Of a stretch of 64,000 nucleotides of DNA, positions 32,690-35,996 are shown in pieces; within the stretch, counting starts at the first letter, position 1; every line of letters begins with the position of its first letter. The stretch spans positions 3,509,966-3,573,965 of the forward strand of contig NZ_KZ454943.1 in assembly GCF_002797395.1 (NCBI RefSeq), given 5' to 3'. The DNA is from Bacillus solitudinis (GTDB lineage Bacteria; Bacillota; Bacilli; Bacillales; Bacillaceae_D). The notes beneath the pieces were generated by a model, which saw only the letters and a program-made list of their open reading frames with translations, did not search any database and was not told the origin of the DNA. Made by a program: the position numbers and the translations under genes.

Positions 32690-33663
32690 GGGAAAAGCTA
32701 TTAAAAATTTTATTACAACATAAGGATGGCTTCGTCTCAGGTGAAAAAATTAGCCTTGAGTTGGGGTGCTCGAGAACAGCTGTTTGGAAGCATATAGAGG
32801 AGCTTCGCAAGGATGGATATGAGGTAGATTCTGCACCTAGGAAGGGATACCGAATCATTAAAAAGGCAAATGGTATTCAATCACACGAAGTTAATATTCA
32901 TCTTGAAACTGAGAGAATCGGTCGTTCGATTTCTTATTATGATGCGATTGACTCTACACAGATAATTGCACATAAACTCGCACAAGAAGGTATGGAAGAA
33001 GGACATATTGTTATTGCAAATGAGCAAACTTCGGGGAGAGGGAGATTGGGTCGTTCTTGGTATTCTAAGGGTGGGACAAGCATCTCAATGAGTTTGATTT
33101 TACGTCCTAAGCTTTCCCCTCAGCAAACACCACAATTAACCCTACTCTCTGCAGTAGCAGTTATTCGAGGTGTGAAGAAAATAACGGGTATTGATTGTGA
33201 GATTAAATGGCCAAATGATGTTTTAATTAATGGGAAAAAAATCGTCGGGATATTAACAGAAATGCAGTCAGACCCGGACTACGTTCATTCGGTTATTATT
33301 GGTATCGGGCTAAATGTTAATCAACAAACGACCGATTTCGAACCGGATATACAAAGGCTTGCAACATCACTTTCAATTGAAACAGGTCAACAAATTGAAC
33401 GTTCAAGACTAATTGCTGCTATTTTAGGAGAGTTCGAATGGCTCTATGACGAGTATTTGGAAAATGGATTTTCAATGATTCGAGGATTATGGGAAGCTCA
33501 TGCAGTAAGCGTAGGAACTTATATTTATGCAAGGACCCCAAAACAAGTTATTTATGGGTATGCTCAAGGAATAACCGATGAAGGGGTCCTACTAGTTCAG
33601 GATGAACAAGGAACAATTCATCATATTTATTCTGCCGATATTGAAATTGCTAAGCAAACGTAA
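32686..33663 (+). CDS. birA: Biotin protein ligase / biotin repressor
   Basis: A 325-aa bifunctional BirA. An N-terminal winged helix (SLELGCSRTAVWKHIEELRKDGY) is the DNA-binding domain, then the ligase domain with the biotinyl-AMP loop TSGRGRLGRSW, KWPNDVLINGKKIVGILTE, and a C-terminal SH3-like part. GTG start at 32686 overlaps the cca stop, with AAAGGAGAGAG upstream. It attaches biotin to carboxylases and represses biotin genes. Confidence 0.95.
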   Translation: MREKLLKILLQHKDGFVSGEKISLELGCSRTAVWKHIEELRKDGYEVDSAPRKGYRIIKKANGIQSHEVNIHLETERIGRSISYYDAIDSTQIIAHKLAQEGMEEGHIVIANEQTSGRGRLGRSWYSKGGTSISMSLILRPKLSPQQTPQLTLLSAVAVIRGVKKITGIDCEIKWPNDVLINGKKIVGILTEMQSDPDYVHSVIIGIGLNVNQQTTDFEPDIQRLATSLSIETGQQIERSRLIAAILGEFEWLYDEYLENGFSMIRGLWEAHAVSVGTYIYARTPKQVIYGYAQGITDEGVLLVQDEQGTIHHIYSADIEIAKQT

Positions 33664-33671
33664 TGAAAATC

Positions 33672-33830
33672 TGTTATACTCATCATATATAGGGCGGTAT
33701 CCCACTCGGAACTGCACCAACAGTATAGTGTAAATAAACGGATCTGCCTTGATCCCAAAGAAGGACTAGGACAGAGGGATTCATAAAAGAACGTAAAACA
33801 AGTCATATGAAGATGATTTGTTGTTTTAGT
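33672..33830 (+). promoter_or_regulatory. Structured leader RNA of panBCD
   Basis: An extended -10 (TGTTATACT, 33673-33680) is followed by a structured leader. GGCGGTATCC (33693-33702) pairs with GGATCTGCC (33740-33748) with one bulge, enclosing a hairpin CACT..ACTG / CAGT..AGTG (33703-33730) with loop CACCAA. AAAGAAGGA (33757-33765) is exactly complementary to TCCTTCTTT (33839-33847) in the terminator and can act as antiterminator. A conserved 'pan' RNA motif has been reported upstream of pantothenate genes in bacilli; this may be one, but I could not align it. Confidence 0.6.
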
Positions 33831-33834
33831 ACGC

Positions 33835-33873
33835 AAAATCCTTCTTTCTTTTAATAGAACGAGGGGTTTTTTT
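33835..33873 (+). terminator. Attenuator terminator before panB
   Basis: AAAATCCTTC pairs with GAGGGGTTTT (two G-U), continued by TTCT/AGAA, and followed by a T run. It stands 40 bp ahead of panB inside the leader. Confidence 0.75.
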
Positions 33874-33912
33874 ATACGTTCAAACATGAACCCTCCGAAA
33901 TGGAGGTATGTT

Positions 33913-34752
33913 ATGAAAACGACAGCAAGCTTTTTAAGAATGAAGCAAAAATGTGAAAAAATAGCGATGATGACAGCCTATGATGCACCTGCTGCAAAAA
34001 TTGTAGAAGAAGCCGGTGTGGATATGATCCTTGTCGGTGATTCGCTTGGAATGGTCGTACTCGGATATGATTCAACGATTCCAGTCACCATTGATGATAT
34101 GGTTCTCCATACAAGAGCGGTCAAACGAGGTGCCACGTCAACGTTTATTGTGACGGATATGCCGTATTTAACCTATCATGGTAGCTTTGATGAGACGCTT
34201 GTTCAGGCTAGAAAGCTTATGCAGGAGGCAGGAGCTCATGCAGTCAAGCTTGAAGGAGCTAAAGCTGTTATTCAGACGATTGAGCAGCTGAGGGAAGCTG
34301 GTGTACCTGTAATGGGGCATCTAGGCTTAACCCCGCAATCAGTGGGTGTTTTAGGTGGTTACCATGTACAAGGTAAGGAATTAACTGAAGCGAAACAACT
34401 AATTGAAGATGCTTTAGCGATTGAAGCTGCAGGAGCATTCGCTCTTGTCCTTGAGTGTGTGCCCGAGCAATTAAGTACATTAATTGCCGGTCGTTTAGCA
34501 ATCCCCGTTATTGGAATTGGTGCTGGGATGCACACTGATGGTCAAGTTCTTGTTTACCACGATGTTATTGGGTATGGGAATGTCCATGTACCAAAGTTTG
34601 TTAAGGCGTACACGAATGTAACAGACCCCATTCGTAATGCAATGAAAAGCTATGTGACTGAAGTAAAAGAAAAACGTTTCCCAGAAGCCGAGCATTCTTT
34701 TAGTCTAAGTGAAGATGTTATCGATGGTCTCTATGGGGGAAAAAACGAATGA
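33913..34752 (+). CDS. panB: 3-Methyl-2-oxobutanoate hydroxymethyltransferase
   Basis: A 279-aa TIM-barrel enzyme making ketopantoate from ketoisovalerate and methylene-tetrahydrofolate. Motifs are [34 protein letters not shown] (metal-binding Asp), GAHAVKLEG and GHLGLTPQ. The ATG at 33913 follows GGAGGT; an earlier ATG at 33886 lies just after the terminator without a proper site. It overlaps panC by ATGA. Confidence 0.96.
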
Positions 34753-35609
34753 ACATTGTTAAAACGATTAACGAACTAAGAGAACGAATCGACGATTGTA
34801 AAAAAAAGAATAAATCAGTAGGTTTTGTTCCGACGATGGGGTTCTTGCATGAAGGTCATCTTCGTTTGATAAAACAAGCTAGAGAAGCAAATGATATCGT
34901 GGTGCTTAGTATATTTGTGAACCCACTCCAGTTTGGGCCGAATGAAGATTTCGAACGTTATCCTCGGGACTTCAAACGGGATGAGCGTTTGGCTCGTGAG
35001 GCAGGAGTTGATGTCCTGTTTTATCCAACGGTCACAGAAATGTACCCAAAAGAGCCGATGATGACAATTCATGTCACGCAGGGGGTTGATGTTCTTTGTG
35101 GAGCAAGCCGCCCCGGTCACTTCGACGGAGTAACAACTGTCGTCATGAAACTTTTTCAAATTGTCCTTCCAGATAGAGCCTATTTTGGGTTAAAGGATGC
35201 CCAACAAGTGGCGATTATTATGAATATGGTTGAGACTTTTAATGTGCCAATTGATGTGGTCGCATGTGAGACAGTGCGAGAAGATGATGGATTAGCTAAA
35301 AGCTCACGAAACGTCTATCTATCAGTAGATGAACGCCAAGCTGCGCCTTTATTGTATCAAGCTTTACAAAAAACAAAAGCATATATTGAAAATCACTTTT
35401 GTACACGTACAGAGGGGATGACATTCCTTTACGAACAACTAAGTGAACAACCGATCGGAGCGATAGATTATATTGATATACTGAGTTACCCACGTTTAGA
35501 ACGTGTGAATGAACTAACAGGGACAATCATTATTGCATTAGCTTATCGATATGAACACGCACGTCTCATTGATAATTTATTATTGAATGTGCAAAAGAAA
35601 GGAGTTTAA
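34749..35609 (+). CDS. panC: Pantothenate synthetase
   Basis: A 286-aa ATP-dependent ligase joining pantoate and beta-alanine. [20 protein letters not shown] contains the HxGH-type nucleotide motif; [27 protein letters not shown]-like [10 protein letters not shown] and [11 protein letters not shown] (KMSKS-like) follow. It is placed between panB and panD with an ATGA overlap on its left. Confidence 0.96.
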
Positions 35610-35612
35610 CGG

Positions 35613-35996
35613 ATGTTTCGAACGATGATGAAAGCGAAAATTCACCGTGCACGAGTAACTGAAGCAAATTTGAACTATGTTGGTAGTATAACCATTGATG
35701 AAGATATTATGGATGCTGTTGATATACTCGAGAATGAAAAAGTTCAAATTGTAAATAATAACAATGGTGCAAGACTTGAAACGTATGTCATTAAAGGCCC
35801 CCGTGGAAGTAAAGTCTTTTGTTTAAATGGCGCTGCTGCAAGACTTGTGCAAGAGGGCGACGTAATTATTGTGATATCCTATGCCCTTGTTGCACAAGAG
35901 AAAGCAAAGGACCATAAACCAAGGGTGGCAATTATGGATGAAACTAATCAAATCGTTGAAATGTTAGCGGCAGAACCAGCTTCTACCGTTTTGTAA
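35613..35996 (+). CDS. panD: Aspartate 1-decarboxylase
   Basis: A 127-aa pyruvoyl enzyme making beta-alanine. The self-cleavage site is Gly24-Ser25 in YVGSITID, which yields the pyruvoyl group on the alpha chain. [14 protein letters not shown] and [19 protein letters not shown] are typical. RBS AAAGGAG is at the panC end. Confidence 0.96.

Follow-up and report, generated by a model that had tools for sequence, protein, structure and literature searches.

A pan-motif leader upstream of panBCD in Bacillus solitudinis: a conserved tail as candidate antiterminator strand and translational switch

In the trp operon under TRAP control, the RNA that results from read-through can hide the Shine-Dalgarno sequence. 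In the B. subtilis trp leader, as a passage of PMC3913778 presents it, RNA bound by TRAP prevents formation of the antiterminator and the terminator forms. The pan motif was described by Weinberg et al. in 2010; the passage devoted to it locates the motif before pan genes and suspects the involvement of a dimeric protein (PMC2864571). The relevant part of a Paenibacillus RNA-seq paper lists pan before panB (PMC5670726). A literature search, with most subscription journals and all supplements outside its scope, found no paper on a pan ligand, an antiterminator, a mechanism or kinase genes, and a term search of PMC2965389 and PMC13273304 found no panB or pantothenate text.

The window, that is the whole stretch of 64,000 nucleotides of Bacillus solitudinis DNA that was analysed, contains a leader of about 225 nt which separates birA (end at 33663) from panB. 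A first-pass annotation, made from the sequence alone, had placed panB, panC and panD behind this leader, which was confirmed by Pfam, and had considered that the leader could be the 'pan' RNA motif. This identification was right: the scan with the Rfam pan model (cmscan) gave a match to RF01749 at 33691-33778 with 58.8 bits for a gathering cut-off of 36.2, spanning the full model (positions 1-92 of 92). With a score above the gathering cut-off, two hairpins with two bulged A each and a position upstream of panB, panC and panD, the element is an ordinary member of the known pan family. It is the sole Rfam match found by cmscan within the whole window, and a whole-genome scan revealed no second pan copy in this genome. 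The fold of the leader beats 200 of 200 dinucleotide shuffles (z -3.58). The PyrR binding site RF00515 was also tried on the same stretch and was rejected as a chance-level match (22.8 bits against a cut-off of 54, E 0.49). The leader and the operon have the following features:

33672 to 33680, + strand: probable promoter with an extended -10 TGTTATACT (-10 hexamer 33675-33680), read from the sequence
33691 to 33778, + strand: pan motif RF01749 with its two hairpins and its conserved tail (cmscan)
33913 to 34752, + strand: panB (Pfam PF02548, 366 bits)
34749 to 35609, + strand: panC (PF02569, 346.7 bits)
35613 to 35996, + strand: panD (PF02261, 177.6 bits)

Judged by the spacing from the Shine-Dalgarno sequence, the true start of panB is most likely the ATG at 33913 and not the upstream ATG at 33886. 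As the extended -10 TGTTATACT ends at 33680, the transcript would start at about 33687, just before the pan motif. A consensus promoter scanner picked another, weak site in its place. Of 108 CTGCC-type leaders, 104 have a TANANT-type hexamer within the preceding 30 nt, the pattern being loose and counted without a shuffle control.

Among 40 relatives, pan was detected in 34 and panB in 39; the sole relative devoid of panB (G036) is also devoid of pan. The motif was detected in the B. subtilis control genome as well. In one relative (G017:C1:297390-298155), the panB match is split in two pieces with an internal stop codon and the pan leader is retained. A PanB scan of viral contigs gave no match. 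In total, 165 leaders were read in the motif sense, and a terminator was found in 153 of them. The terminators were picked automatically; some picks are wrong (e.g. L008, L016, L018, L019 and L076) and none of these was removed from the counts given below.

The two hairpins of the motif were positioned as follows:

33691 to 33718, + strand: pan hairpin 1, with two bulged A (Rfam alignment; covariation in relatives)
33744 to 33774, + strand: pan hairpin 2, with two bulged A (Rfam alignment; pair counts in relatives)

In 30 aligned motifs, 98.8% of the cells of these hairpins were paired, 11 of the 19 pairs had changed on both sides, and none of 500 shuffles did as well. Changes on both sides affected 8 of the 9 pairs of hairpin 1 and 3 of the 10 pairs of hairpin 2, in which 98% of the cells were paired. 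The first-pass annotation had drawn a different structure, a bulged stem between 33693-33702 and 33740-33748, which joins the 5' strands of hairpins 1 and 2 to each other. This stem had to be abandoned: in the same 30 motifs, 74.8% of its cells were paired against 73.5% after shuffling, a level reached by 63 of 500 shuffles.

Downstream of the hairpins, the predicted terminator hairpin with its T run about 40 bases ahead of panB was indeed found, and a fixed-rule terminator scan did not list it. The elements which would compose the transcriptional switch are given below:

33769 to 33781, + strand: switch strand GGACAGAGGGATT, made of the end of the hairpin 2 3' strand and the conserved tail; it would form the 5' side of the antiterminator
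33797 to 33822, + strand: linker hairpin between the switch strand and the terminator (predicted fold)
33835 to 33870, + strand: intrinsic terminator (-13.2 kcal/mol), T run 33867-33873
33837 to 33849, + strand: left arm of the terminator, pairing with the switch strand in the proposed antiterminator

The proposed antiterminator pairs 33773-33781 with 33837-33845 and 33769-33771 with 33847-33849. The Rfam consensus ends with a purine-rich tail (GACAGAGGG, GACGGAAGG and similar) and, in the 165 leaders, the left arms of most downstream terminators carry CCTTCTG, CCTTCTT, CCTTCCG or CCTTTCGG. In the 153 leaders with a terminator, the matched tail and arm gave a mean of -12.37 kcal/mol against -11.03 kcal/mol for permuted pairs, and 0 of 2000 swaps between leaders was as good. 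The same result (0 of 5000) was obtained with 75 representatives, one leader being kept per 70% identity group so that all share less than 70% identity. For the 37 representatives that are not of Bacillales type, 3 of 5000 swaps were as good, against 52 of 5000 for the 38 that are. Within Bacillales, the antiterminator columns were paired at 83.8% in 26 leaders, a level reached by 284 of 500 shuffles; both antiterminator strands are nearly fixed there, which explains the lack of column covariation. Support for the proposed antiterminator thus comes mainly from the comparison between lineages. In 132 of the 153 leaders the tail/arm duplex reaches -8 kcal/mol; among the 21 others, some lack a strong duplex because the automatic terminator pick is wrong, and the rest truly lack it. 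This duplex takes at least 2 bases of the hairpin 2 3' strand in 130 of the 132 leaders and at least 4 in 100 of them, so hairpin 2 and the antiterminator would be mutually exclusive. The antiterminator and the terminator also exclude each other. The leader therefore presents the two attributes of a transcription attenuator, an intrinsic terminator before the first gene and a competing antiterminator which, according to the swap tests, has been kept in evolution.

The region could also be read as a constitutive terminator spacer between birA and panB, the complementarities being side effects of purine-rich and pyrimidine-rich sequence. Tail and arm are both of low complexity, and dinucleotide shuffles of the arm gave p ≤ 0.05 in 64 of the 153 leaders only. 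That test is weak, owing to the low complexity of the arm, and it was replaced by the swaps between leaders. We consider a simple spacer very improbable, because the matched pairs beat swaps made among leaders of similar composition and because three other strands of the motif, used as controls, reached p ≤ 0.05 in only 4-5% of the leaders.

The antiterminator strand named in the first-pass annotation was another one, the loop of hairpin 2 AAAGAAGGA (33757-33765), facing TCCTTCTTT (33839). Both sequences are at these positions and are exactly complementary over 9 bases. At 33848, the loop pairing is predicted to be the transient minimum (-40.9), with a stability similar to that of the tail pairing in this species, and a leader of the same genus (L024) retains, by eye, 8 of the 9 pairs. 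In this leader alone, comparison with shuffles gave a borderline value of 0.06. Among relatives the loop varies freely: 1272 of 2000 swaps were as good in the 153 leaders and 1712 of 5000 in the 75 representatives, and the column count for AAAGAAGGA/TCCTTCTTT was no better than shuffles. The complement exists in this genome and is not kept elsewhere, so that the loop is an improbable antiterminator strand. The general idea of a terminator/antiterminator plan for pantothenate synthesis was sound, since a terminator-competing strand is conserved; the strand had been misnamed, the tail being the conserved one. Likewise, the comparison of related leaders that had been recommended to look for covariation sustains the Rfam hairpins, which covary, and the tail, for which the swaps are significant, and leaves the drawn stem and the loop pairing at shuffle level.

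The tail and the bases which follow it are also complementary to a segment preceding the Shine-Dalgarno sequence (pre-SD), a pairing designated P3:

33774 to 33784, + strand: 5' strand of P3, GAGGG-A-UUCAU
33886 to 33895, + strand: 3' strand of P3, AUGAACCCUC, overlapping the anti-Shine-Dalgarno sequence
33892 to 33906, + strand: Shine-Dalgarno hairpin CCUCC/GGAGG, the Shine-Dalgarno sequence being 33902-33906

In the window, 33774-33778 pair with 33891-33895 and 33780-33784 with 33886-33890, leaving one bulged A. P3 uses most of the CCUCC which otherwise covers the Shine-Dalgarno GGAGG. Among relatives, the tail and the next dozen bases complement the pre-SD segment in the same manner, for instance GGGTCGAAAC with GTTTCGTCTCC and GGGATTCAGC with GCTGAAGCTCTCC. 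This was evaluated on a cleaner set in which a protein signature defined the panB starts; 137 of 188 leaders were retained, a further 2 were discarded for insufficient length, and 52 representatives were used. A first representative set had contained several misplaced Shine-Dalgarno sites. The matched mean was -13.9 against -10.52 for permuted pairs, and 0 of 5000 swaps was as good; restricting the test to the 12 bases that the Rfam model does not cover gave the same 0 of 5000. As controls, the hairpin 2 loop against the pre-SD segment gave 2375 of 5000 (45 CTGCC-type representatives) and a window situated 36 nt further upstream gave 379 of 2000 (98 leaders). The motif, the terminator and both complementarities of the tail are conserved across lineages.

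P3 was assessed via duplex energies and fixed registers, as whole-leader MAFFT failed to align the pre-SD strand. In fixed registers, the distal part exceeded shuffles in registers 0 and 2 and the proximal part did not (38 of 45 leaders, 7 skipped), and 24 of the 126 panB leaders of CTGCC type have a weak P3. For the Shine-Dalgarno hairpin, no clear covariation was detected, with 8 of 5000 in the set containing the misplaced sites and 716 of 5000 in the cleaner one. Since P3 lies behind the terminator, it could operate only on read-through RNA, most likely at the level of translation, and would constitute a second, translational layer which was absent from the earlier reading. The overlap of P3 with hairpin 2 is limited to 1-3 bases, so that control of translation by the sensor is putative. 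In the window, hairpin 2 with terminator and Shine-Dalgarno hairpin, and full P3 with terminator, differ by less than 1 kcal/mol, these energies being rough because the forced terminator is out of register.

The model that we regard as probable is that of a pan-motif regulator in which hairpin 2 and the antiterminator would compete for GGACAGAGGGATT, with control of transcription and then of translation. The ON state, the order of events and the translational effect are what we infer from the complementarities. A candidate sensor, metabolite or protein, would hold both hairpins folded, GGACAGAGGGATT would stay in hairpin 2, and the terminator 33835-33870 would then form and stop transcription before panB. 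With hairpin 2 open, GGACAGAGGGATT would pair with the left arm of the terminator (33837-33849) and RNA polymerase would pass. After this passage, GGACAGAGGGATT and the following bases would pair with 33886-33895, freeing the Shine-Dalgarno sequence 33902-33906 and opening translation. Hairpin 2 held closed would accordingly be OFF at both levels. Before the right arm of the terminator is made, the antiterminator is predicted at -41.7 kcal/mol in the window against -36.2 kcal/mol with hairpin 2 kept; as judged from these model energies, the difference of 5.5 kcal/mol suggests that read-through would be the default and the closing of hairpin 2 the regulated act.

The same tail appears in other contexts among relatives. 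In three other genomes (L093, L106 and L148), the tail itself is the Shine-Dalgarno sequence of panB and no leader of the kind described above follows, and in L162 the tail serves a transporter gene of ECF type in the same way. In these cases also, closing hairpin 2 would mean OFF. Leaders L077 and L118 are without a terminator and retain the arrangement between tail and pre-SD segment. All these forms would share one prediction, hairpin 2 closed being OFF. The conserved tail would provide a concrete expression platform of predicted sign.

Other leaders diverge from this organisation. L120 and L121, from the family of the window, have pan copies that have diverged: the tail is changed, no complement between tail and terminator is evident and another hairpin surrounds the panB Shine-Dalgarno sequence; the switch may have been lost or rebuilt. 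L148 is the second pan copy of its genome (G029); this diverged motif, whose tail is the Shine-Dalgarno sequence, belongs to a second panB-like gene (283.5 bits). In one Bacillales group (L039, L042, L045, L054, L056, L057, L089, L173, L174, L176 and L177), a branched structure of about 100 nt replaces the terminator; its inner part, GCGGCAAGTCT...AGACTGAT...ACCCCTGTC, is conserved and is flanked by the terminator arms CCTCC/GGAGG. In these leaders ACCCCTGTC could pair with the tail, one A being bulged, and the branched structure may hold a second sensor.

The first recognisable gene behind pan was determined for the 165 loci by short sequence signatures, which left 11 of them unlabelled: panB (119 loci), a Rossmann protein (24), panC (6), an ECF-type membrane protein (4) and a type II kinase (1). 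Outside Bacillales, such a Rossmann-like gene (L068, L069, L070, L082, L083, L085, L087 and others, 24 of 165 loci) often lies directly after pan, upstream of panB or panC. Of two 75-residue pieces tested, one weakly matches ketopantoate reductase (ApbA); the gene may be the ketopantoate reductase that these operons otherwise lack.

Kinase and transporter genes were also found behind pan. In L156, a type II pantothenate kinase stands behind an OPT-like transporter (271.3 bits for an NCBIfam cut-off of 234). In L162 and L160, a type III pantothenate kinase stands behind ECF-type proteins (441.5 and 418.5 bits for a cut-off of 381, NCBIfam), and L151 associates ECF-type proteins with a type III pantothenate kinase, the gene order having been read by eye. 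The ECF proteins fall short of the NCBIfam cut-off; the L072 protein exceeds that of Pfam. The pan copies themselves obtained 61.0 (L072), 53.6 (L160), 47.9 (L156), 45.6 (L162) and 39.3 bits (L151) with cmscan. As uptake, synthesis and phosphorylation genes share pan, the signal is suggested to be the supply or status of CoA rather than pantothenate itself.

Two kinds of sensor were considered. In G670, G316 and G657, another pan copy precedes synthesis genes; copies located apart in the same genome would require a diffusible signal, protein or metabolite. The chances appear evenly balanced that the pan hairpins bind a dimeric protein sensing CoA or pantothenate status and holding hairpin 2 closed in a TRAP-like manner. 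The two hairpins of one plan, with two bulged A each, are consistent with such a protein, which the discoverers proposed in their passage on the motif (PMC2864571); this putative protein would alter the sensor and not the anatomy of the switch. That pan is a direct metabolite riboswitch, with CoA or a compound of its pathway as ligand, is a serious possibility which we place somewhat below even. Synthesis, uptake and kinase genes would then obey one signal, as the type II kinase with the OPT transporter (L156) and the ECF-type proteins with type III kinases (L151, L160 and L162) suggest, and these copies narrow the ligand question towards CoA. However, the hairpins are small, their loops are variable and binding is putative only, and the L151 copy is close to the cut-off, with a degenerate first hairpin. 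We hold as doubtful the broader proposal that the pan strand is a universal output handle, acting by lineage as antiterminator, as Shine-Dalgarno opener or as Shine-Dalgarno sequence, with CoA sufficiency as signal. If true, pan would control CoA supply in Firmicutes at the RNA level and would act twice on one transcript. The synthesis of pantothenate and CoA is relevant to vitamin B5 production and to antibiotics.

In comparison with known systems, the leader shares with the pan motif of Weinberg et al. the tandem hairpins with two bulged A each, the position upstream of panBCD and the presence in B. subtilis, whereas the passage on that motif describes no antiterminator, Shine-Dalgarno layer, kinase or transporter genes (PMC2864571). 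The computed conservation of a putative expression platform and the wider gene set are what is new here. Like the PyrR binding site RF00515, the pan leader would belong to an attenuation system, but it lies far below the cut-off of that family. The proposed model is also close in logic to trp/TRAP, where a leader bound by its sensor blocks the antiterminator and the Shine-Dalgarno sequence can be hidden in the read-through RNA, although the RNA and the sensor of that system are not those of pan.
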